DNA of 39,095 bases from an uncultured Gemmiger sp. (GTDB lineage Bacteria; Bacillota; Clostridia; Oscillospirales; Ruminococcaceae): assembly GCA_944382785.1 (NCBI GenBank), contig CALWNO010000024.1:1-39095 (forward strand), given 5' to 3'. The notes beneath the pieces are model-generated. The model did no database searches. It saw only the letters and a program-made list of their open reading frames with translations, and had not been told where the DNA came from. The position numbers and the translations under genes were made by a program. Of this stretch, positions 11,050 to 34,823 are shown piece by piece; within the stretch, counting starts at the first letter, position 1, and each line of letters begins with the position of its first letter.

Positions 11050-12495
11050 GTGGCGAAAAAGGATAAAATTCAATATGTGCTCAACCTTCTGGCGGATGGT
11101 GCCAGCCTCCTGGTCAGTGTGGTGGCGGCCTGGCTTGTCACCGACAAAGGCCTGGGGGTGCTGCTGGACTATACCCGCCAGGACTGGGGCCAGTTCATCC
11201 TGATCCTGCTGCTGGCCTTTCTGGTGGTGTATGCGGGGTTCAACGGTTCTGCCCGGCTTACCCGGCGGGGCTGGAAGTCGGAACTGCTTCACTGCCTGCG
11301 CAATACCATTCTGCTGGGGGCGGTGCTGGCGGTTTGCCTGCTGCTGACCAAGGCTACCTTGCTGGAATCCCGCTACCTGTATGTGGGCATTCTGGCAGCC
11401 AACGCGGTCTGCCTGTATCTCTCCCATACGGCACTGAAAACCTACCTCAACAAATACTTCTATAAAGGGTCCCTGGCCACTTTGGTGGGCATCATCACCA
11501 CCACCGACAGGGCACCGCTGCTGATTCATGACCTCAAACACGACTGGGCCAAAAAGCTGCAGGGGGTGGTCCTGCTGGATGCCGAGCAGCCCGGCGGCCG
11601 GGTGGACGGAGTGCCGGTGGCGGCGGTGTATGAAGGAGCTATGGAATGGATTCGCCACGAACCTCTGGATGAAGTGTATGTGAATGTGCCCTACCAGAGC
11701 GGGGATTCCCTGCGCCCGCTCCTCAATGAGATGGAGAGCATGGGACTGTGCGTGCACCTGAATGTGACGGTATTGGAACCCTACACCGCGGCGGCCCGGC
11801 AGGAGGAGGGCTGGTTCCCCCAGCTGCAAACCACGGTAGAAACAGCGGGAGGCGTACCCTTTGTCACCATCACAGCCGCGGAACATGATTTCGGCGCCAT
11901 GATCCTCAAGCGGATGATGGATGTGGTGGGGGCGCTGGTGGGGCTGGTGATCTCGGTGCCCATCATTGCGATTACGGCCATTCCCCTCAAACTGGAAAGC
12001 CCCGGTCCTCTCTTTTTCCGCCAGAAACGGGTGGGCCTCAACGGCCGGGTGTTCTATATTTACAAGCTGCGCAGCATGTATGCGGATGCGGAAAAACGCA
12101 AGCAGGAACTGATGGAACAAAACAAGATGCAGGGCCTGATGTTCAAGATGGATGATGACCCCCGCATCACCAAAGTGGGCAAGTTCATCCGTCGTACTTC
12201 CATCGATGAACTGCCCCAGTTCTGGAACATTCTGAAAGGGGATATGAGCCTGGTGGGCACCCGTCCGCCCACACTGGACGAGTACGAGCAGTACGATTCC
12301 CACCACAAACGGCGCCTTTCCATGAAGCCGGGGCTGACCGGCCTGTGGCAGGTCAGCGGCCGCAGCGATATCCGCAATTTTGAGGAAGTTGTCAAACTGG
12401 ATGTGACCTACATCGATAACTGGTCTCTGGGTCTGGATATGCGGATTCTGGTCAAGACCATCGGTGTGGTGTTCAAGCGCACCGGCGCAGAATGA
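11050..12495 (+). CDS. Polyprenyl glycosylphosphotransferase (initiating sugar-phosphate transferase, large form)
   Basis: The enzyme transfers a sugar-1-phosphate from an NDP-sugar to undecaprenyl phosphate, the first step of exopolysaccharide synthesis. The 481-residue protein has four to five N-terminal membrane spans, a soluble CoA-binding-like middle (about 140-270) and a C-terminal bacterial sugar transferase domain (about 283-481). That domain has a membrane helix, KLESPGPLFFRQKRVG, the KLRSM segment, RRTSIDELPQFWNIL and LVGTRPPTLDEY. The start is GTG 11050 after AGGGGG. It follows the TagA-like gene by 21 nt and ends at a terminator. The sugar cannot be read from sequence. Compare the much smaller form at 34813-35433. 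Confidence 0.9.
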   Translation: MAKKDKIQYVLNLLADGASLLVSVVAAWLVTDKGLGVLLDYTRQDWGQFILILLLAFLVVYAGFNGSARLTRRGWKSELLHCLRNTILLGAVLAVCLLLTKATLLESRYLYVGILAANAVCLYLSHTALKTYLNKYFYKGSLATLVGIITTTDRAPLLIHDLKHDWAKKLQGVVLLDAEQPGGRVDGVPVAAVYEGAMEWIRHEPLDEVYVNVPYQSGDSLRPLLNEMESMGLCVHLNVTVLEPYTAAARQEEGWFPQLQTTVETAGGVPFVTITAAEHDFGAMILKRMMDVVGALVGLVISVPIIAITAIPLKLESPGPLFFRQKRVGLNGRVFYIYKLRSMYADAEKRKQELMEQNKMQGLMFKMDDDPRITKVGKFIRRTSIDELPQFWNILKGDMSLVGTRPPTLDEYEQYDSHHKRRLSMKPGLTGLWQVSGRSDIRNFEEVVKLDVTYIDNWSLGLDMRILVKTIGVVFKRTGAE

Positions 12496-14793: not shown

Positions 14794-14869
14794 TGGTCGG
14801 AGTGACGGGATTCGAACCCACGGCCTCTTGGTCCCGAACCAAGCGCGCTACCATCTGCGCTACACCCCG
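14794..14869 (-). tRNA. tRNA-Pro (anticodon CGG)
   Basis: The minus strand gives acceptor CGGGGTG / CACTCCG (one G-U), D arm with GGTA, anticodon stem CTTGG/CCAAG around loop TTCGGGA (anticodon CGG, codon CCG), T loop TTCGAAT, discriminator A and an encoded CCA. It lies downstream of tRNA-Gln, but a terminator sits between them, ending 2 nt before this gene's 5' end. Confidence 0.97.
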
Positions 14870-14871
14870 AG

Positions 14872-14901
14872 AAAAAAACCGCAGCAGCCGGGCTGCTGCG
14901 G
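14872..14901 (-). terminator. Intrinsic terminator between the two tRNA genes
   Basis: On the minus strand CCGCAGCAG-CCCGG-CTGCTGCGG is followed by seven T (14872-14878). The stem begins 3 nt after the tRNA-Gln CCA, and the T-run ends 2 nt before tRNA-Pro. Confidence 0.85.
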
Positions 14902-14904
14902 TCC

Positions 14905-14978
14905 TGGTTGGGGATGAGAGGATCGAACTCCCACGGGCGGAGTCAGAGTCCGCTGCACTACCATTATGCGAATCCCCA
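14905..14978 (-). tRNA. tRNA-Gln (anticodon CTG)
   Basis: Acceptor TGGGGAT / ATCCCCA, D loop with AATGGTAG, anticodon stem GCGGA/TCCGC around CTCTGAC (anticodon CTG, codon CAG), T arm GGGAG-TTCGATC-CTCTC, discriminator A and encoded CCA. A perfect-consensus promoter lies 39 nt upstream. Confidence 0.97.
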
Positions 14979-15275: not shown

Positions 15276-16352
15276 ATGAAAATGCGTGTCGGTATCCTTA
15301 CGTCCGGTGGCGACTGCCCCGGCCTGAATGCGACCATCCGCGGCGTGGCCAAGGCGCTGTATCAGCGCATGGGTGATAACGTGGAGATCATCGGCATCAT
15401 GAACGGTTACGACGGCCTGATCAACGGCAACTACCGCGTGATGGACCCGTCGGAATTTTCCGGTATCCTGACGGTGGGCGGTACCATCCTGGGCACCAAG
15501 CGCACCCCCTTCAAGATGATGCGGGTGGTGGGCGAAGACAAGGTGGACAAGGTCGCTGCCATGAAAAAGACCTACAAGGCGGCCAAGCTGGACTGCCTGC
15601 TCTGCCTGGGCGGCAACGGCACCCACAAGACCGCCAACCTTCTGAGCCAGGAAGGATTGAACATCATTGGCCTGCCCAAGACCATTGATAACGACATCTA
15701 CGGCACCGACGTGACCTTCGGCTTCCACACTGCCGTGGACATTGCCACCGAGGTCATCGACCGCATCCACACCACCGCTGGCAGCCACAGCCGGGTGATG
15801 TGCATCGAAATCATGGGCAACAAGGCCGGCTGGCTGACCTTGTACTCCGGTATCGCAGGCGGTGCCGACATTATCCTGATCCCCGAACATCCCTACGATA
15901 TCAAGAAGGTAGCCAATGCTGTGGAACGCCGCGCCAAGGCAGGCAAGAACTTCTCCATTCTGGCGGTGGCCGAAGGTGCCGTCTCGGTGGAAGAAGCCAA
16001 GATGAAGCGCAAGGAATGGACCGCCAAGCGCGCCGCCGAAGGCTACACCACGGCCACCAACCGTATTGCCCATCAGATCGAGGAGATGACCGGCGCCGAG
16101 ACCCGGATCTGCGTACCCGGTCATATGCAGCGCGGTGGTTCTCCTTCCGCGTATGACCGCGTGCTGGCTACCCAGTTCGGCGCCTATGCCGCCGGCCTGG
16201 TGGCGGACGAGCACTACGGTGTGACCGTGGCCATGGTCAACCGCAGCGTTACCGCCAACCCGCTGATCGAGATCGCGGGCAAGACCCGGGGCGTGCCCGA
16301 TGACTGCGCCATGCTCAACGTGGCCCGCTCCATGGGCATCAGCCTGGGCTGA
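15276..16352 (+). CDS. pfkA: 6-phosphofructokinase family, mixed ATP/PPi signature
   Basis: The enzyme phosphorylates fructose-6-phosphate in glycolysis. The 358-residue protein has the N-terminal donor loop TSGGDCPGLNA (9-19), the catalytic PKTIDND (134-140, base Asp138) and MGNKAGWL (180-187), and the effector/substrate segment GHMQRGGSPSAYDR (282-294). Two donor-choosing positions differ from E. coli PfkA: GGDG reads GGNG (112-115), so the metal-binding Asp is Asn114, with Gly115 kept as in ATP enzymes; PGTIDND reads PKTIDND, with Lys135 as in pyrophosphate enzymes. This fits the mixed 'group III' class; the donor cannot be settled from sequence. ATG 15276 follows GGGAGGG by 7 nt. It is a single-gene unit. 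Confidence 0.93.
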   Translation: MKMRVGILTSGGDCPGLNATIRGVAKALYQRMGDNVEIIGIMNGYDGLINGNYRVMDPSEFSGILTVGGTILGTKRTPFKMMRVVGEDKVDKVAAMKKTYKAAKLDCLLCLGGNGTHKTANLLSQEGLNIIGLPKTIDNDIYGTDVTFGFHTAVDIATEVIDRIHTTAGSHSRVMCIEIMGNKAGWLTLYSGIAGGADIILIPEHPYDIKKVANAVERRAKAGKNFSILAVAEGAVSVEEAKMKRKEWTAKRAAEGYTTATNRIAHQIEEMTGAETRICVPGHMQRGGSPSAYDRVLATQFGAYAAGLVADEHYGVTVAMVNRSVTANPLIEIAGKTRGVPDDCAMLNVARSMGISLG

Positions 16353-16446: not shown

Positions 16447-16494
16447 TTTGCCCGATTTTTGCCTGGAAATCGCCCGAAAACATGGCAGACCCTC

Positions 16495-16523
16495 TTGACG
16501 AAGAAGCAAAAAGGTGATATGGT
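16495..16523 (+). promoter_or_regulatory. Promoter of the GntR-ABC operon
   Basis: TTGACG (16495-16500), 17 nt, TATGGT (16518-16523) with an extended TG at 16515-16516. The 85-nt leader that follows contains the operator candidate and the ribosome site of the regulator. Confidence 0.7.
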
Positions 16524-16525
16524 TA

Positions 16526-16539
16526 ATTACACAAGTAAT
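16526..16539 (+). promoter_or_regulatory. Candidate GntR operator
   Basis: ATTAC-ACAA-GTAAT is a perfect 5-bp inverted repeat 3 nt after the -10, over the transcription start, where a repressor made by the same operon would act. YtrA-type regulators usually control their own operon this way. Confidence 0.5.
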
Positions 16540-16608
16540 GAACCGAACAACCGGAGTGCGCAGCCGGTATCGGTTCTGCCTGTTTTACCCAAGAAAGGGG
16601 GCAATGGT

Positions 16609-16989
16609 TTGAAGGGAACACTTAATGACCAGAGCCTGATCTACCGGCAGATCGCCCAACTGCTGGAGGATGGCATCCTGCGGGGGGAATACCCCGCCGA
16701 CACCCAGGTGCCCAGCACCAATGAGCTGGCCCGGGCCTTCAACATCAATCCCGCCACCGCTGCCAAAGGCATCAACCGCCTGGTGGAGGAAGGTCTTTTG
16801 TACAAGCGGAGAGGCATTGGAATGTTTGTGGCCCCGGGAGCGGCCGAAGCCCTGCGGCAAAAGCGGCGGGAGGACTTCGCCAAAACCCAGGTCAGAGCCT
16901 TTGTGCGGGAAGCCAAACGTCTGGGCCTGACCCAACAAGAACTATACAGCCTGGTCAAAGCCCAGGCACAGGAGGAACAACTGCCATGA
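16609..16989 (+). CDS. GntR-family (YtrA type) transcriptional regulator
   Basis: The 126-residue protein has the short YtrA form: winged helix-turn-helix at residues 8-75 (SLIYRQIAQLLEDGI...VPSTNELARAFNINPATAAKGINRLVEEGLLYKRRGIGMFV) and only a short helical tail for dimerisation, with no effector domain. TTG 16609 lies 7 nt after AAAGGGGG. The in-frame ATG 16519 would start inside the -10 box of the only promoter seen and is rejected. The stop overlaps the ABC ATPase start by 4 nt (ATGA). It probably represses this operon, with release by an unknown ligand or cell-envelope stress, as in B. subtilis YtrA. Confidence 0.88.
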   Translation: MKGTLNDQSLIYRQIAQLLEDGILRGEYPADTQVPSTNELARAFNINPATAAKGINRLVEEGLLYKRRGIGMFVAPGAAEALRQKRREDFAKTQVRAFVREAKRLGLTQQELYSLVKAQAQEEQLP

Positions 16990-17897
16990 CCACTACGACA
17001 AAAGCACCAGCCCCGCAGCCTCTGCAGGCGGACAAACTTTGCAAGACCTATGGCAAACAATCTGTTTTGCAGGATCTGGACCTGACCTTTGAGCCCGGGT
17101 GCATTTACGGGCTCATCGGCCGCAACGGCGCGGGCAAAACCACCCTGCTGGGCATCTTGTCCGGTCAGAACTTTGCCACCGGGGGCCGGGCCCTGTACGG
17201 CGGCCAGCCGGTGTGGGAAAACAGCGCCGTGTTGGGCAATCTGCACTTTGCCCGGGAACTGTCCGCTGCCAGTGAGCTCAGCGGCCTTTCGGTCAAGAAC
17301 TTCATGCGGGCCGGGCGGCTGTTCTGCCCTTACTGGGACCAGGACTATGCCGACGAACTGATCAAAAAATTTGAACTGCCCAACAAGATGATCAACCGCC
17401 TGTCCCGCGGGCAGATGAGCATGGTGTCCATCACGGCGGCACTGGCTTCCCGGGCACCGGTCACCCTGCTGGACGAACCTACCGCCGGGCTGGATGTGGT
17501 GGTGCGGGAACGGTTTTACCGTATCCTGCTGGAAGAATACCAGCGCACCGGCCGCACCTTTGTTATCTCCACCCACATCATCGAGGAGGCTGCCTCGGTG
17601 TTTGAAAAGGTGGTCATCCTGGACGAGGGCAAGGTGGTGGCCGACCAGAACACCGAGGACCTCGTCGCACAGTTCCGCTACATCAGCGGCCCCGCCGCAG
17701 AACTGGACGCGGCTCTGGCCGAACAGGACATCATGCCTCTGCAGACCCAGGTGCTGGGTGGCCACAAGATGGTGGCTGTGCGGGGAGAGGATGCTCTCTT
17801 TGAAAAACTGGCGGCCCGGGATGGCCTGACGGTGGAAGGCATGAACCTGCAGAACGTGTTCGTGGCCCTGTGCGGCCACGGCGACGAGGAGGGGTGA
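16986..17897 (+). CDS. ABC transporter ATP-binding protein (YtrB-like)
   Basis: This 303-residue ATPase would power the two membrane proteins encoded after it. It has Walker A GRNGAGKT (45-52), an LSRGQ signature (139-143; the usual LSGGQ with Arg), Walker B VTLLDEP (159-165) and switch His197 in ISTH. The C-terminal 90 residues form the extra domain common to multidrug/bacitracin-type exporters. ATG 16986 overlaps the regulator stop. The GntR-ATPase-two-permeases order matches Ytr-type exporters linked to antimicrobial or cell-wall stress, but the cargo is not predictable here. Confidence 0.92.
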   Translation: MTTTTKAPAPQPLQADKLCKTYGKQSVLQDLDLTFEPGCIYGLIGRNGAGKTTLLGILSGQNFATGGRALYGGQPVWENSAVLGNLHFARELSAASELSGLSVKNFMRAGRLFCPYWDQDYADELIKKFELPNKMINRLSRGQMSMVSITAALASRAPVTLLDEPTAGLDVVVRERFYRILLEEYQRTGRTFVISTHIIEEAASVFEKVVILDEGKVVADQNTEDLVAQFRYISGPAAELDAALAEQDIMPLQTQVLGGHKMVAVRGEDALFEKLAARDGLTVEGMNLQNVFVALCGHGDEEG

Positions 17898-18550: not shown

Positions 18551-19242
18551 AAAACAAAGGACAAACCTTTGCCCGCACGTTGGGCAGTGTTCTCCAACTG
18601 AACACCAAGTCTATGGCAATCCAGGCGGGCGTTCAGGTGGCCGTCTGGGCTCTTACGGTCGGGATTCTGGCCGTGGTGGATGGATTTATCCAGAGCGATT
18701 CGCCGGCACTTTTCCTGGGACTGCCGGGCATCTTTACCGTGTGTGCCGGTGCTATCCTTTTATTTATAGAAGGCATGCAGCAGTTCAACATGGATTTTGT
18801 GGTGCAGATCAACTTTGGCATTGCCCGCCGCCGTGCCCTGCAGGTGGGCTGGGTGGCTGTGCTGGGATACGGCGTGGTGACAGCGGTGCTCTCTGCGGTT
18901 CTGGAAGCCTTCTGGTACTTTGTGCTGGCCGGCGGCCAGGGGGAAAGCTTCCTTTGTCGGATTCCCGCCTGGGGCTGGCTCTGCCTGGTGCTGATGCCTG
19001 CGGCCCTGTCGGCACTGGCGGTGGGGGTGATGCACCGTTTCGGTGCAAAAGGCGGTCTGGTACTCTGGCTGTCCTTTATGGTTCTGTGCCAGGTACCTCA
19101 GCTGCTGGAAATCACATCTAAAAATGCCCTGGAGCTTCTGGCGGACATGCTGCCGGTATTTTTGCCTCTGGTGGGCCTGGCAGCGGCTGTGGTCGGAACG
19201 GTTCTTCTGTACCGGGACAATGCCGCGGTCACAAACCGTTGA
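18547..19242 (+). CDS. ABC transporter membrane subunit 2
   Basis: The 231-residue protein has about six spans (near residues 20-42, 52-75, 98-122, 136-158, 164-185 and 200-222) and begins at GTG 18547 (KNKGQTFART), overlapping the previous stop. A QFNMDFVVQINFGIARRRALQ loop follows the second span; this short charged loop between spans 2 and 3 may be the site that touches the ATPase, as coupling helices do. It is the last gene of the GntR operon. No terminator with a T-run follows, apart from the long palindrome at 19283-19306. Confidence 0.72.
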   Translation: MKNKGQTFARTLGSVLQLNTKSMAIQAGVQVAVWALTVGILAVVDGFIQSDSPALFLGLPGIFTVCAGAILLFIEGMQQFNMDFVVQINFGIARRRALQVGWVAVLGYGVVTAVLSAVLEAFWYFVLAGGQGESFLCRIPAWGWLCLVLMPAALSALAVGVMHRFGAKGGLVLWLSFMVLCQVPQLLEITSKNALELLADMLPVFLPLVGLAAAVVGTVLLYRDNAAVTNR

Positions 19243-19268
19243 CAAAATTCGACCATCCACGCTACAAT
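19239..19268 (+). promoter_or_regulatory. Promoter of the GH42-like gene
   Basis: TTGACA (19239-19244, over the stop codon of the upstream gene), 18 nt, TACAAT (19263-19268). Confidence 0.75.
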
Positions 19269-19282
19269 GCAAACAGGAAGGA

Positions 19283-19306
19283 GCGCCGCCCCGGCCGGGG
19301 CGGCGC
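19283..19306 (+). repeat. Perfect 24-bp palindrome in the leader of the GH42-like gene
   Basis: The 24 bases starting GCGCCGCCCC and ending GGGGCGGCGC are fully self-complementary. They lie about 8 nt after the expected transcription start and 17 nt before the AGGAGG. As RNA they fold to a very stable stem; TTGTTG follows, not a true T-run. It could end the upstream ABC transcript, cap the leader, or bind a dimeric regulator. Confidence 0.6.
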
Positions 19307-19337
19307 TTGTTGCTTGGATGGCAGGAGGTGTGTACCC

Positions 19338-21242
19338 ATGTCGGATGGATACTGGAAGGGGCTGCTGCACAGTGCGGTGTATGCCCCGCAGCGCTGGGCC
19401 GGGCAGCCGGAAATCTTGCGCCGTGATCTGGAACTGATGCACAAGGCCGGGCTGAACACGGTCACCCTGGCCGCCGGGGCCTGGCCCTGGCTGGAACCCA
19501 GGGAAGGGGAGTATGCCTTCGACTGGCTGGACAACGTCCTGACCACCCTGGAAGAAAACAAAATCAAGGTGATCCTGTGTGCCCAGGGACAGGTTTGCCC
19601 CGCCTGGATGGTCCGGCATTATCCCGGCGCTGTGCGCACAGATGAGAACGGCACCCGTCCGGCCCCCCGGGAGATTGGTGGCCTCTGTCCCAGCCACACC
19701 GCCCGCCGCAAGAAGGTGCGGGAGATGGACGAACAGCTGGCCCGCCGCTACGGAGCTCACCCGGCGGTGCTGGCCTGGCTGGTCACCGGCATGGACCAGC
19801 CCTGCTACTGTCCCTCCTGCCAGAAGGCCTACCGCGCCTGGCTGCGCAAAAAGTACGAGACCCTGGGGGCTCTCAACGAAGCCGGCGGCACCGCCTATTC
19901 TGACTGGGAAGAGATCAGCGCCGCCCGCCAGGAGGGTGCCAACCTGTGCGCCGCCGTGGACTGGGACGAATTCTGTGCCTACCAGCGGGCGGAACTGCTT
20001 CACCTGGAGGTGGAGGCTATCCGCAAGGGCTGCCCGGATGCCCGCATCTTTACCGATCTGCTGCCCCAACAGGGCGGGGGAGAGGCCGACCTGACCCTGG
20101 CCGTGGTGCGGCCGGACTGGCGCAGCGGCAGCGATCTTTCCAGCGAATGGAAGCGGGCGGTGCGGACTGCTTTTGTGTACGACCGGGCCCGGTGTGCCGG
20201 GCGTCCCTTTGTGGTCCGGCAGCTGCCCGGTACCAAATGCCTGCGTCCGGGACAGCTCATGCTTTCCCAGTTGCAGGCGGTGGCCTGCGGGGCGGACGGG
20301 GTGGAGCATGCCCTCTGGCGCCAGCTGCCCGCCAGCCTGGAAAGCGGTGCGGTGGTCAGCCGCAACGGCAGCGCCGAGACCCGTCTGTTCCGGGAAACGG
20401 CGGAAGCCGGTCAGGTGCTGCAAAAGCTGCCCTTTGTAGGGGGCATGGGCATCCGGGCGTCGGTGGCGTTTCTGTATGACGGCCGCACCCCGGCGGGGCT
20501 GGCAGCCCTGGCGGCCGCTCACCGCTGCGGCGACCCGCAGAACGTGATTCTGGACCACTATGCAGCCCTCTTGGAAAACTACGTGGACGTGGACGTGCTG
20601 GACCCGGCAGCGGACTGGTCCGGCTACAAAGTAGTCGCGGCGCCATTGCTGGCGGTGTTCCAACCGGATATGCCCAAGCGCATGGAGGAATACATCCAGC
20701 GGGGAGGACATTTCCTGCTCACCTTCGGCTCCGGAATCACCGATGAGAACGGCGCCGCTGTGCCCGGCTGGCCGCCCATCGGGCTGAACAATGTGTTCGG
20801 CATCGGGGTGGAAGACTGCGACCCGCTCCTGTCCGGGGAAACCAACAGTTTTACCTACGACGACCAGACCTACCCGGCGGTGTTCTGCTGCGATATCCTG
20901 CGCCGCACCGGTGCCCGGATGCTGGCTGCCTATGAAAAGGATTTTTACCGCGGCCAGCCCGCTGTGACCAAGCGGCCTCTGGGCTTTGGCTGCGCCTGGT
21001 ACCTGGGCTGCCACAGCGACGCCAAATTCCTGCGCAAACTCTACGCCGATATCCTGAAAGAGGCGGGGGTGCCCCGCCTGGCCGACATCCCCTACACCCA
21101 GGACCTGATGCTTCGCCGCCGCACCGACGGCAAGCGCACCTGCACCTTCTTCATGAACTTTTCTTCCCGGGTGCAGGTCACGGCGGGCCATCGTCTGGAC
21201 GCCTACGGCTGTGCCATGGATACCGCCTGGGCCCAGGAGTAA
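19338..21242 (+). CDS. GH42-like protein without the two catalytic glutamates
   Basis: The 634-residue protein has the full beta-galactosidase GH42 layout: TIM barrel (about 1-370, with LMHKAGLNTVTLAAGAWPWLEP), trimerisation domain (about 390-560, YKVVAAPLLAVF...GGHFLLTFGSGITDENG) and a small C-terminal beta domain. The zinc cysteines of the family are kept (Cys117, 156, 158, 161). The acid/base glutamate that follows W-x3-N in active members aligns with Met152 (AWLVTGMDQ), and the nucleophile of the LMEQxPG motif aligns with Arg294 (VVRQLPG). So hydrolysis by the normal mechanism looks impossible. It is free of stops and frameshifts, has its own promoter and AGGAGG before ATG 19338, so it is not decaying DNA. 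It may be a sugar sensor, a lectin or an enzyme with other chemistry. Confidence 0.85.
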   Translation: MSDGYWKGLLHSAVYAPQRWAGQPEILRRDLELMHKAGLNTVTLAAGAWPWLEPREGEYAFDWLDNVLTTLEENKIKVILCAQGQVCPAWMVRHYPGAVRTDENGTRPAPREIGGLCPSHTARRKKVREMDEQLARRYGAHPAVLAWLVTGMDQPCYCPSCQKAYRAWLRKKYETLGALNEAGGTAYSDWEEISAARQEGANLCAAVDWDEFCAYQRAELLHLEVEAIRKGCPDARIFTDLLPQQGGGEADLTLAVVRPDWRSGSDLSSEWKRAVRTAFVYDRARCAGRPFVVRQLPGTKCLRPGQLMLSQLQAVACGADGVEHALWRQLPASLESGAVVSRNGSAETRLFRETAEAGQVLQKLPFVGGMGIRASVAFLYDGRTPAGLAALAAAHRCGDPQNVILDHYAALLENYVDVDVLDPAADWSGYKVVAAPLLAVFQPDMPKRMEEYIQRGGHFLLTFGSGITDENGAAVPGWPPIGLNNVFGIGVEDCDPLLSGETNSFTYDDQTYPAVFCCDILRRTGARMLAAYEKDFYRGQPAVTKRPLGFGCAWYLGCHSDAKFLRKLYADILKEAGVPRLADIPYTQDLMLRRRTDGKRTCTFFMNFSSRVQVTAGHRLDAYGCAMDTAWAQE

Positions 21243-30696: not shown

Positions 30697-32538
30697 ATGT
30701 GTGGAATCGTTGGCTTTACCGGCCGAACCCAGGCCGCGCCCATCTTGCTGGACGGTCTGGCCAAACTGGAATACCGCGGCTATGACTCGGCAGGTCTGGC
30801 GGTGCAGAACGCCGCCGGCAAGATCGAGGTGGTCAAGGCCAAGGGCCGCCTGCGTGTTCTGAGCGAGATGACCGACGGCGGCAACGCGGTGCCCGGCACC
30901 TGCGGCATCGGGCACACCCGCTGGGCCACCCACGGCGAACCTTCGGTGGTCAACGCTCATCCCCATTACAGCCGGGATGAAAAGATCGCGGTGGTGCACA
31001 ACGGTATTATCGAAAATTACCAGGAACTGAAAGACTGGCTCATCAACCGCGGTTTCAGCTTTGTGTCCCAGACCGATACCGAGGTGGTGGCCCAGCTCGT
31101 CGATTACTATTACACCGGCGAGGCGGCGGGAGATCCCCTGGATGCCATCACCCGCATGATGATGCGTGTGCGGGGCTCTTATGCCCTGGGCATCCTGTTT
31201 GCGGACCAGCCCGGTGTGGTGTACGCCGTGCGCAAGGACAGCCCCCTCATCGTGGGTCGTGCCGAGGACGGCAACCTCATTGCTTCCGACGTGCCCGCCC
31301 TGCTCAAGTACACCCGCACCGTCTATTACATTGACAACCTGGAAATCGCCCGCCTGACCGCCGATTCCATCGAGTTCTTCAACATCGACCGGGAACCGGT
31401 GGAAAAGCAGGCCACCACCATTGAGTGGGACGCCGAGGCGGCGGAAAAGGGCGGCTACGAGCACTTCATGATGAAGGAAATCCACGAGCAGCCCGCCGCT
31501 GTGCGGGATACTCTGAGTCCCCGCATCAAGGACGGCAAGGTGGATCTGAGTGAACTTTCCCTGGACGCGGAGGCCATCCGCGCCGTGCGCCGCATCTATA
31601 TTGTGGGCTGCGGTTCCGCCTACCATGTGGGGGTGGCGGCCCGGTATGTCTTTGAGAGCCTGGCCCGGATTCCGGTGGAAGTGGACGTGGCCAGCGAGTT
31701 CCGGTACCGTGACCCGGTGCTGGAGCCGGATTCCCTGGCCATCATCATCAGCCAGAGCGGTGAGACCGCCGACACCCTGGCCGCTTTGCGCCTGTGCAAG
31801 GAGCGGGGGGTGCGCACCATCGGCATCGTCAATGTGGTGGGTTCCTCCATTGCCCGGGAAGCCGACGCCACTTTGTACACCTGGGCTGGACCGGAAATTG
31901 CCGTGGCCACCACCAAGGCATACAGCACCCAGCTGGCGGCCTGCTACCTGCTGGCCATCGCCTTCGGTCAGGACCGGGGTGTGCTGGATGAGGACCGTGC
32001 CGCCGCTCTGGTGGCGGAGCTGCAGGCCCTGCCGGACAAGATCGAAAAGACCCTCTCCGACAAGGAACGCATCCAGTGGTTTGCCAGCAAATATGCCAAT
32101 GCCCATGACGTCTTTTTCATCGGCCGCGGCCTGGACTATGCGGTGGCCCTGGAAGGCAGCCTGAAGTTCAAGGAGATCAGCTACATCCACTCCGAAGCCT
32201 TTGCGGCGGGGGAGATGAAGCACGGCCCCATCTCCCTGGTGGAGAAGGGCACCCTGGTGGTGGGCATCCTGACCCAGCCCGACCTGTACGAAAAGACCGT
32301 CTCCAATCTGGTGGAAGCCAAGAGCCGGGGTGCTTTCCTGATGGGGCTGACCAGCTACGGCAACTACAACATCGAGGACACCGCCGGCTTCACCGTCTAT
32401 GTGCCCAAGACCGATCCCCACTTTGCCATCAGCCTTTCGGTGATTCCGCTGCAGCTGCTGGCTTACTATGTGAGCTGCGCCAAGGGCCTGGACGTGGATA
32501 AGCCCCGCAACCTGGCCAAGAGCGTGACGGTGGAATAA
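30697..32538 (+). CDS. glmS: Glutamine--fructose-6-phosphate aminotransferase (isomerising)
   Basis: GlmS makes glucosamine-6-phosphate from fructose-6-phosphate and glutamine, the entry to UDP-GlcNAc for the cell wall. The 613-residue length is typical. It starts MCGIVGFTG, where Cys2 becomes the N-terminal nucleophile of the glutaminase domain (1-240, with RWATHGEPS and HNGIIENYQ). Two SIS sugar-isomerase domains follow (about 290-430 and 465-605), with the SQSGETADT loop and a C-terminal KPRNLAKSVTVE. ATG 30697 has GGAGGG at good spacing. I see no glmS ribozyme in the leader, so feedback control here must work differently. Confidence 0.98.
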   Translation: MCGIVGFTGRTQAAPILLDGLAKLEYRGYDSAGLAVQNAAGKIEVVKAKGRLRVLSEMTDGGNAVPGTCGIGHTRWATHGEPSVVNAHPHYSRDEKIAVVHNGIIENYQELKDWLINRGFSFVSQTDTEVVAQLVDYYYTGEAAGDPLDAITRMMMRVRGSYALGILFADQPGVVYAVRKDSPLIVGRAEDGNLIASDVPALLKYTRTVYYIDNLEIARLTADSIEFFNIDREPVEKQATTIEWDAEAAEKGGYEHFMMKEIHEQPAAVRDTLSPRIKDGKVDLSELSLDAEAIRAVRRIYIVGCGSAYHVGVAARYVFESLARIPVEVDVASEFRYRDPVLEPDSLAIIISQSGETADTLAALRLCKERGVRTIGIVNVVGSSIAREADATLYTWAGPEIAVATTKAYSTQLAACYLLAIAFGQDRGVLDEDRAAALVAELQALPDKIEKTLSDKERIQWFASKYANAHDVFFIGRGLDYAVALEGSLKFKEISYIHSEAFAAGEMKHGPISLVEKGTLVVGILTQPDLYEKTVSNLVEAKSRGAFLMGLTSYGNYNIEDTAGFTVYVPKTDPHFAISLSVIPLQLLAYYVSCAKGLDVDKPRNLAKSVTVE

Positions 32539-32602
32539 AACTGAACATTGGGAGCACAATTGTCTGACTTGCCAAAATTTTTTTGGTGATTTTGTGCGTC
32601 TT

Positions 32603-32648
32603 TTGCTCCGTTTGCTCTCTGTTAGTAGGGACAAACGGAGCAATTTTG
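32603..32648 (+). terminator. glmS terminator
   Basis: A 12-bp stem TTGCTCCGTTTG / CAAACGGAGCAA is extended inside by CTCTCT/AGGGA and followed by TTTTG. It lies 65 nt after the glmS stop. The preceding stretch (32572-32595) is T-rich. Confidence 0.8.
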
Positions 32649-32657
32649 TGTTATAAT
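32628..32657 (+). promoter_or_regulatory. Promoter of the capD-like operon, overlapping the glmS terminator
   Basis: Perfect TATAAT (32652-32657) with an extended TG (32649-32650); the best -35 is GGGACA (32628-32633) at 18 nt, inside the terminator hairpin. The 130-nt leader after it shows no clear structure. Confidence 0.6.
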
Positions 32658-32789
32658 ACAAGCCGAAGTCAAAATTTTTGTGCGGGGAACGGCGTTGCGG
32701 TCCGGTTTGCCCCGCCATATACTGTGGCAGGGACGGCCGTTTTTTGTCCGGGCTGTCCAGTCTGCCGGATAACAGGGAAGACAGAACGA

Positions 32790-34823
32790 ATGAAGAAAAC
32801 CAATGAACAACTGATCAAGGGTCTGCCCCGCCGCATCCTGCTCATGCTGCTGGACTGCGGTTTGATCGTGCTTTGCTATTATATTGCCATCCTGCTGCGT
32901 TTTGACGGCGCTCAGCAGTATCTGCGCCCCGAAGTCATCGGAACATTCCTGCAGTATATGCCCTATATGCTCCTGACCTACATGGTCGTGTTCTGGTTCG
33001 GCGGGCTGTATGAGATCATGTGGGAGTATGCCGGCATGCGGGACCTGGCCAGGCTGATGTGTCTTTCCGGACTGGCCACCGGTTTCATTATGATGGCCGA
33101 CCTGCTGCTGATGCCCATCGGCGGCGGTGTGCTTTATCGTACCGTGCTGATCATTGGTGCGGTACTCAACATTGCGGCGGTGGCCGGTGTGCGGTTTTTG
33201 TGGCGGCTGTTGCGGACCTTGCGGCAGTATACCAGCAGCACGCCCAAGGCGGCCCGTACCGCCCGGGACAAAACGCCTCTGCTCATTGTGGGCGCGGGCA
33301 ATGCCGGGGCCTGGGCCGTCAACCTGTGCAAGACCAAAAACTCCACCTTCGGCAACCCGGTGGTCATCGTGGATGACGACCTGACCAAAAAAAATCTGCG
33401 TGTGCAGGGCGTTCCGGTGCGGGGAACGATCTCGGATATTCCCGAACTGGTGCGCAAATACCATATTGTGGAGATCGTCATTGCCATCACCACCCTGAAA
33501 GGCGAGCGCCTGCGGGAGGTTATCAACCTCTGCAACTCCACCCATTGCCGGGTGCGGATGCTCAACGACCCCCAGGCTGTGGACGAAAGCGGCAAGCCGG
33601 TGGTGGCGGGCCTGCGGGAACTGAACACCGCGGACTTCCTTTCCCGGGACGAAATTCAGCTGAACAATGCCCAGATCTCCGAATATCTGCACGACAAGGT
33701 GGTACTGGTCACCGGCGGCGGCGGATCTATCGGCAGCGAACTCTGCCGCCAGATCATGCGCTACAGCCCCCGCCAGCTGCTGATCTTCGATATTTATGAA
33801 AACTGTGCCTATGAGCTGGAGATGGAGCTGCGCAACAAGTATGGCGCCGATGCTCCCATCATCACCCTCATCGGTTCCATCCGGGACAAAGCCCGGCTGG
33901 ATGAGGTGTTTGAAACCTACCATCCCTCGGTGGTTTTCCACGCCGCAGCCCACAAGCATGTGCCCTTGATGGAGACCAGCCCTGCCGAAGCGGTGAAGAA
34001 CAACGTCTTTGGCACCAAGAACCTGTTGACCTCCGCTGCCGAGCACGATGTGGAGCGGTTTGTGCAGCTGTCCACCGACAAGGCGGTGAACCCCACCAAC
34101 GTCATGGGCTGCACCAAGCGCATCTGTGAAATGCTCATCCAGACCTTTGCCAGCAACACCACCATGAAGTGCATGGCGGTGCGGTTCGGCAACGTGCTGG
34201 GCAGCCACGGCAGCGTCATTCCTCTGTTTGAGGAACAGATCAAGCGGGGCGGTCCTGTTACCATCACCCACCCGGATATCGTCCGCTATTTCATGACCAT
34301 CACCGAGGCCGCTCAGCTGGTGCTGCAGGCCGGCGGTCTGGCCAAGAGCGGCAGCATCTACGTGCTGGATATGGGGGAACCGGTGCGCATCATGGACCTG
34401 GCCAACCGGCTGATCCGGTTCTACGGCTATGAGCCCGGGGTGGATATCCCCATCGAGATCACCGGTCTGCGTCCCGGCGAAAAGCTGTATGAGGAGCTTA
34501 TGCTGGATTCCGAGCAGGACAAGATGCTGAGCACCGCCCACAACAAGATCTTCATCGCCCCGCCCATGGAAATCGATCTGGCTCATTTCTATGAGGAGCT
34601 GCAGAATCTGCAGGTCTGTGCCGAACACAACGATGAGGCGGTGGTGCTTGGGCTGCAGCGCATTGTGGGGCGGTATCATCCCAACCGCAAGCTGAACGAG
34701 GACCATACCGTCAGCGCGGCCCACGGCAACACCTCCCTCATCGACAAGAGCGAGATCGAACACGCGGTGGCCCAGCAGCAGGCTGCCATGGAGAGCATGA
34801 AGGAGAGCAAAGATGTATCGTAA
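32790..34823 (+). CDS. CapD/WbpM-type membrane nucleotide-sugar 4,6-dehydratase
   Basis: Members act on UDP-GlcNAc to make a 4-keto-6-deoxy sugar for surface glycans. The 677-residue protein has four membrane spans (about 15-115), a first Rossmann-like domain (about 145-290, LLIVGAGNAGAW) and the catalytic SDR domain (about 300-600) with the NAD loop VLVTGGGGSIGSE and STDKAVNPTNVMGCTKR. In that motif the usual Tyr of YxxxK is Met, as in other large WbpM-type enzymes. ATG 32790 is chosen because the N-terminus MKKTNEQLIK leads straight into span 1; the AGGGAAG site is modest. It overlaps the next gene by 11 nt. The product sugar is inferred by family. Confidence 0.9.
   Translation: MKKTNEQLIKGLPRRILLMLLDCGLIVLCYYIAILLRFDGAQQYLRPEVIGTFLQYMPYMLLTYMVVFWFGGLYEIMWEYAGMRDLARLMCLSGLATGFIMMADLLLMPIGGGVLYRTVLIIGAVLNIAAVAGVRFLWRLLRTLRQYTSSTPKAARTARDKTPLLIVGAGNAGAWAVNLCKTKNSTFGNPVVIVDDDLTKKNLRVQGVPVRGTISDIPELVRKYHIVEIVIAITTLKGERLREVINLCNSTHCRVRMLNDPQAVDESGKPVVAGLRELNTADFLSRDEIQLNNAQISEYLHDKVVLVTGGGGSIGSELCRQIMRYSPRQLLIFDIYENCAYELEMELRNKYGADAPIITLIGSIRDKARLDEVFETYHPSVVFHAAAHKHVPLMETSPAEAVKNNVFGTKNLLTSAAEHDVERFVQLSTDKAVNPTNVMGCTKRICEMLIQTFASNTTMKCMAVRFGNVLGSHGSVIPLFEEQIKRGGPVTITHPDIVRYFMTITEAAQLVLQAGGLAKSGSIYVLDMGEPVRIMDLANRLIRFYGYEPGVDIPIEITGLRPGEKLYEELMLDSEQDKMLSTAHNKIFIAPPMEIDLAHFYEELQNLQVCAEHNDEAVVLGLQRIVGRYHPNRKLNEDHTVSAAHGNTSLIDKSEIEHAVAQQQAAMESMKESKDVS

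Follow-up and report, generated by a model that had tools for sequence, protein, structure and literature searches.

A GH42-fold protein without catalytic glutamates maintained under purifying selection in a Gemmiger clade

The DNA analysed here (the window) is a stretch of 39,095 nucleotides on contig CALWNO010000024.1 from an uncultured Gemmiger sp., and it contains an intact open reading frame of 634 amino acids with no internal stop, whose product we call psi-GH42. The protein matches two profiles of glycoside hydrolase family 42 (GH42), the barrel profile PF02449 (E=6.3e-69, 233.6 bits, cut-off 21) and the trimerisation profile PF08532 (E=3.2e-47, 161.2 bits, cut-off 25.8), and is a GH42 by ancestry. 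The NCBIfam scan gave no GH42 model and no match above any cut-off. A full-length GH42 fold is predicted by the structure model, for which the structural comparison consisted of Foldseek matches among those listed. A preliminary description of this DNA had reported a clean frame, this length and these domains, all of which are confirmed; its statement that the C-terminal domain is kept holds for the model and its structural match, but Pfam reports no match in that region. The protein is probably cytosolic, as no signal peptide was recognised by eye. The gene and its parts are as follows.

19338..21242, plus strand (stop codon included): psi-GH42, GH42-fold protein without catalytic glutamates (frame, Pfam, phmmer, structure model)
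19380..20429, plus strand: degenerate TIM-barrel domain, PF02449, residues 15-364, pocket residues gone (Pfam)
19686..19820, plus strand: span with the four zinc-type cysteines C117, C156, C158 and C161 (alignment)
19791..19793, plus strand: Met152 codon, W+5; the acid/base Glu column itself is a gap (alignment)
20217..20222, plus strand: Arg294-Gln295 codons, with Gln295 in the nucleophile column at the end of predicted strand 291-295 (alignment, model)
20457..21071, plus strand: trimerisation domain, PF08532, residues 374-578, pairwise ratio of nonsynonymous to synonymous substitution (dN/dS) 0.049-0.124 (Pfam)
21072..21239, plus strand: C-terminal beta domain, residues 579-634, with 6 of 56 positions varying among four orthologues (structure model)

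Catalytic positions were compared between four psi-GH42 orthologues and 42 ordinary GH42s sampled from the window's own genus, family and phylum. This set omits near-copies (L008, L010, L011, L014, L049, L052, L060), the truncated L013, L056 with its one in-frame TAA, and distant or split sequences (L019-L021, L024-L027, L029, L030); it also omits family-search matches without a returned locus, whose catalytic Glu status lies outside the counts. The nucleophile column holds Glu in all 42 ordinary proteins and Gln295 in all four psi proteins, and the acid/base column, likewise Glu in 42 of 42, is a gap in the four. In a wider alignment both columns are Glu in 48/48 non-psi rows. The Asn preceding the acid/base column is replaced by Gly151, and Met152, the residue at W+5 in all four psi proteins, fills the acid/base place once the gap is moved. 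Gln295 is also placed at the nucleophile by the phmmer alignment to 4oif and its nucleophile mutant 5dfa (E323A), and its position at the end of a predicted strand agrees with this placement. It had been claimed from the letters that Met152 and Arg294 replace the two catalytic glutamates; the loss and both residue positions stand, but the nucleophile column contains Gln295 rather than Arg294, which occupies the Met column just before it, and the acid/base column is a gap. Other glutamates at the active-site positions, named in the preliminary description as what would count against it, are not seen in the alignment: in all four proteins the stretches between residues 132 and 174 and between 270 and 323 are free of Glu. 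Therefore no register shift restores a catalytic Glu, and that possibility was rejected. Both the acid/base Glu that follows W-x3-N and the nucleophile Glu of GH42 beta-galactosidases are thus missing from psi-GH42.

The losses extend to the sugar pocket. A study on BiBga42A (PMC10688820) names 16 residues for recognition and catalysis, of which 14 were mapped (F221 and R327 were left out), D24, W200 and M262 by conservation and the rest by spacing, counted by eye, from a catalytic Glu or from each other. In the 42 ordinary rows 13 of these 14 never vary and the other, Met262, is present in 41, whereas none is kept in all four psi proteins and only one position stays acidic. The psi residues are V at D24, I/S/A/M at R121, L/L/L/M at H156, G at N159, L at M262, V/E/V/I at D285, R at Y287, Q at E318, A at F356 and E/D/D/D at E366; gaps are found at E160, W200, W326 and H369. 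The Trp-bearing stretches FWSH and TPSxxNWQ are deleted, and old-pocket positions 113 (I/S/A/M), 148, 256 (V/E/V/I) and 335 vary among the four. As described in the same source, N159, D285, R121, W326 and H369 contact O2, O3, O4 and O6 of galactose, and W200 is a Trp lent to the pocket by the neighbouring subunit. By this mapping, the galactose site of psi-GH42 is erased beyond mere catalytic disarming. Because W200 is deleted, completion of a galactose pocket cannot explain the remaining constraint on the trimerisation domain.

Carriers of psi-GH42 are 4 of 35 Gemmiger genomes, the window's and three others whose proteins show 91, 87 and 83% identity. Searches with the window protein in 35 genomes of the genus, 396 of the family, 394 of the order and 398 of the phylum (listing limits 1e-3, 1e-60, 1e-100 and 1e-95, respectively; the samples overlap, and the larger groups are represented by samples of genomes), together with a contig search, found only these four species, and all remaining listed matches are at most 36% identical. 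In a valS tree covering 29 of the 35 Gemmiger genomes, the four carriers fall into a single clade with a support of 99 in the SH-like approximate likelihood-ratio test (SH-aLRT), and they are collinear with the window around psi-GH42. No ordinary full-length GH42 was found in them; the other PF02449 matches, in two of the four genomes, are partial and reach at most 25.8 bits. Ordinary Gemmiger GH42s (L005-L012, L014-L018, L022, L023) share the genus and domain order and are 30-35% identical to psi-GH42, but their catalytic residues are intact and no psi-GH42 was found in their host genomes. In the protein tree the psi stem is very long, with 2.78 changes per column to one side of a midpoint root, and the crown is shallow. 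Grouping psi-GH42 with either of two Gemmiger groups, which were picked after the tree had been viewed, is not rejected by the approximately unbiased test (p-AU 0.081 and 0.085), and these sequences neither establish nor rule out that psi-GH42 descends from ordinary Gemmiger GH42s.

The reading frame is intact in all four species, with neither a stop nor a frameshift, and pairwise dN/dS over 634 codons is 0.116-0.199 at dS 0.46-0.57, from which it follows that the gene is maintained. Purifying selection without the catalytic residues is what characterises a pseudoenzyme. The earlier proposal of catalytic loss without decay is thereby supported in four species of one clade, whose promoter region is also conserved. 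The distribution of constraint between the domains differs as well. In 848 of 861 pairs of ordinary GH42s the trimerisation domain has diverged more than the barrel (median ratio of barrel to trimerisation domain 0.75, maximum 1.28), whereas in psi-GH42 the barrel is the more divergent in all six pairs (1.56-2.89). The corresponding dN ratio is 0.35-0.58 in every one of the 28 pairs formed by eight ordinary Gemmiger GH42s. From these to psi-GH42, median dN/dS rises from 0.119 to 0.224 in the barrel and falls from 0.263 to 0.088 in the trimerisation domain, with slightly overlapping ranges in both cases. In psi-GH42 the barrel is therefore held less tightly by selection than the trimerisation and C-terminal domains, contrary to what ordinary GH42s show. 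Relaxation alone is insufficient for this pattern because one domain relaxed while the other tightened.

The four zinc-type cysteines named in the preliminary description are confirmed and are common to all four psi proteins and all 42 ordinary GH42s, in which family they bind zinc. Seven further cysteines (87, 204, 286, 494, 517, 552 and 602) are invariant in the four psi proteins and occur in at most one of the 42 ordinary proteins. The total is 18-20 in psi proteins and a median of 13 (range 7-19) in ordinary rows; since the latter contain the matched stretch alone, their totals and their counts at end positions are low estimates. The psi-specific cysteines could possibly form a metal or redox site.

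Upstream of psi-GH42 lie genes for PFK (15276-16352), a GntR regulator (16486-16989) and an ATP-binding cassette (ABC) ATPase (16986-17897), followed by two proteins without a Pfam match, read as permeases because their sequences look hydrophobic; the gene directly before psi-GH42, taken as a permease, ends at 19242. The leader, 19239-19337, consists of a promoter-like site, at once a GC-rich hairpin, and then a ribosome-binding site.

19239..19268, plus strand: sigma-70-like promoter TTGACA-18-TACAAT (11/12), whose -35 element shares bases with the stop codon of the gene before it; conserved in all four psi genomes
19281..19308, plus strand: GC-rich hairpin of the leader, folding into 12 pairs; identical in three genomes and with an additional G in the other
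19323..19328, plus strand: ribosome-binding site AGGAGG, nine bases 5' of the ATG; conserved in four genomes

The promoter and ribosome-binding site that the preliminary description assigned to the gene are thus present in all four genomes, but the hairpin stands between them. A T run 3' of the hairpin is clear in two genomes only (G019 and G008), and the hairpin may be a terminator of the ABC operon or an attenuator of psi-GH42. The gene's place after a GntR-ABC operon was also correctly described. A link beyond position is not borne out: in the four non-psi Gemmiger genomes that were read (G031, G005, G016 and G010), the permease-type gene is directly followed by valS with its leader, with no gene between. 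Downstream of psi-GH42 in the window comes valS, whose T-box leader at 21306-21539 matches RF00230 with 76.3 bits (E=3.7e-16), below the gathering score of 93. Elsewhere, tRNA-Pro(cgg) and tRNA-Gln(ctg) at 14794-14978 on the minus strand are overlapped by mechanically listed open reading frames on both strands. Surface-polysaccharide-type genes are found at a distance on both sides, namely a bacterial sugar transferase (11050-12495) on one and a SIS/glutamine-amidotransferase protein (30697-32538) and a polysaccharide-synthesis epimerase (32583-34823) on the other.

We favour, with a probability of roughly 0.6, the reading that psi-GH42 is a GH42-derived pseudoenzyme in which the barrel serves as a scaffold and a partner is bound through the trimerisation/C-terminal surface. 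In the ancestor of the four-species clade, a GH42-derived gene would have stood between the permease-type gene and valS. The catalytic glutamates, galactose-contacting residues and active-site loops are gone, while the fold, the zinc-type cysteines and both the trimerisation and the C-terminal domain are retained, as sequence and model show. The product would be a cytosolic, probably zinc-stabilised homotrimer whose conserved trimerisation/C-terminal surface may bind another molecule. A bolder and more tentative form is that the GH42 has been turned inside out, with the trimerisation and C-terminal module as the functional, selected part on a scaffold barrel and possibly a new ligand or metal site, for which candidates are cysteines that are invariant in psi-GH42 and lacking in the 42 ordinary proteins, such as C87, C494, C517 and C552. 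Pseudoenzymes usually modulate an active paralogue, but this mode is unlikely here because the four psi genomes yielded no ordinary GH42.

Several points weigh against this reading. Barrel dN/dS of 0.18-0.27 in psi-GH42 is still purifying selection, and the barrel may retain a function of its own. The trimerisation domain has a mean identity of 30% to ordinary GH42s and the barrel 36%; the inversion of constraint is thus seen within the four species and is absent on the stem. The psi sample is four sequences whose pairs are not independent, and the dN/dS ranges overlap as noted above. That the psi genomes lack an ordinary GH42 was judged from one near-complete assembly (G008, 99%) and three others at 93-94%. 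In addition, the new polar residues D153, D240, R258, Q295, E323 and H324, near strand ends, do not vary among the four psi proteins, as would also be expected of a new active site.

The last point leads to a neofunctionalised enzyme, in which these residues line a remodelled barrel mouth that has become an active or ligand-binding site for other chemistry, the new chemistry that the preliminary description also listed. We consider this rather doubtful: 257 of the 366 positions in the barrel are invariant in any case and 109 vary, so that the invariance of the polar set says little, the old-pocket positions noted above as variable differ among the four proteins, the barrel is the less constrained domain, and the orientation of the polar residues towards one pocket is a guess from predicted strand ends. 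Glu to Gln is a classical inactivating change that leaves binding competence. With Gln295 in the nucleophile place in all four proteins, and an acidic residue still matching Glu366, which contacts galactose O4 in BiBga42A, psi-GH42 might serve in the cytosol as a lectin or sensor for galactose or oligosaccharides, its old pocket still binding but no longer cutting. This is distinctly unlikely, as the equivalents of N159, D285, R121, W326 and H369 are replaced or deleted, as are those of F356 and the neighbouring-subunit Trp. Since the galactose-contacting residues named in that source are gone and several positions, 113 and 256 among them, are variable, sensing or binding by the ancestral site, one of the roles suggested in the preliminary description, is not supported. 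Slow decay of a pseudogene would agree with a barrel whose rate relative to synonymous change is about double that in ordinary Gemmiger GH42; it is highly improbable and was rejected on frame integrity (no stop or frameshift in four species) and dN/dS at dS of about 0.5, and ordinary Gemmiger GH42s constrain their trimerisation domain less tightly than psi-GH42 does. Equally hard to credit is a glycosidase still working with displaced acids, despite the retained overall fold and zinc cysteines. No Glu lies within 20 residues of either catalytic position, both Trp-bearing stretches are deleted, and alanine mutants of either Glu alone in BiBga42A lower kcat 170- and 2,900-fold (PMC10688820).

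The closest known systems to psi-GH42 are the GH42 beta-galactosidases 5e9a (Rahnella), 4oif (GanB, Geobacillus) and 8ibr (BiBga42A), from which it differs in lacking the catalytic Glu, in its erased pocket and deleted active-site loops, and in its inverted domain constraint. Klotho is a GH1 pseudo-glycosidase, and several animal pseudo-glycosidases keep a ligand-binding groove; such a groove is not evident in psi-GH42. In Klotho, as in heparanase-2 and CHI3L1/YKL-40, an enzyme fold too outlives catalysis and is reused for non-hydrolytic work, but these are animal proteins of other families. No report of a GH42 pseudoenzyme was found in the open-licence literature, outside which most subscription journals lie. 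One strain that carries psi-GH42 is Gemmiger formicilis An812 (locus L032). Since the Pfam profile search labels the protein a beta-galactosidase and the genomes carrying it yielded no further full-length GH42, predictions of sugar use for these gut bacteria would err. With a single clade, intact enzyme relatives elsewhere in the genus and a measurable shift of constraint between domains, psi-GH42 provides a clean case of the passage from enzyme to non-enzyme.
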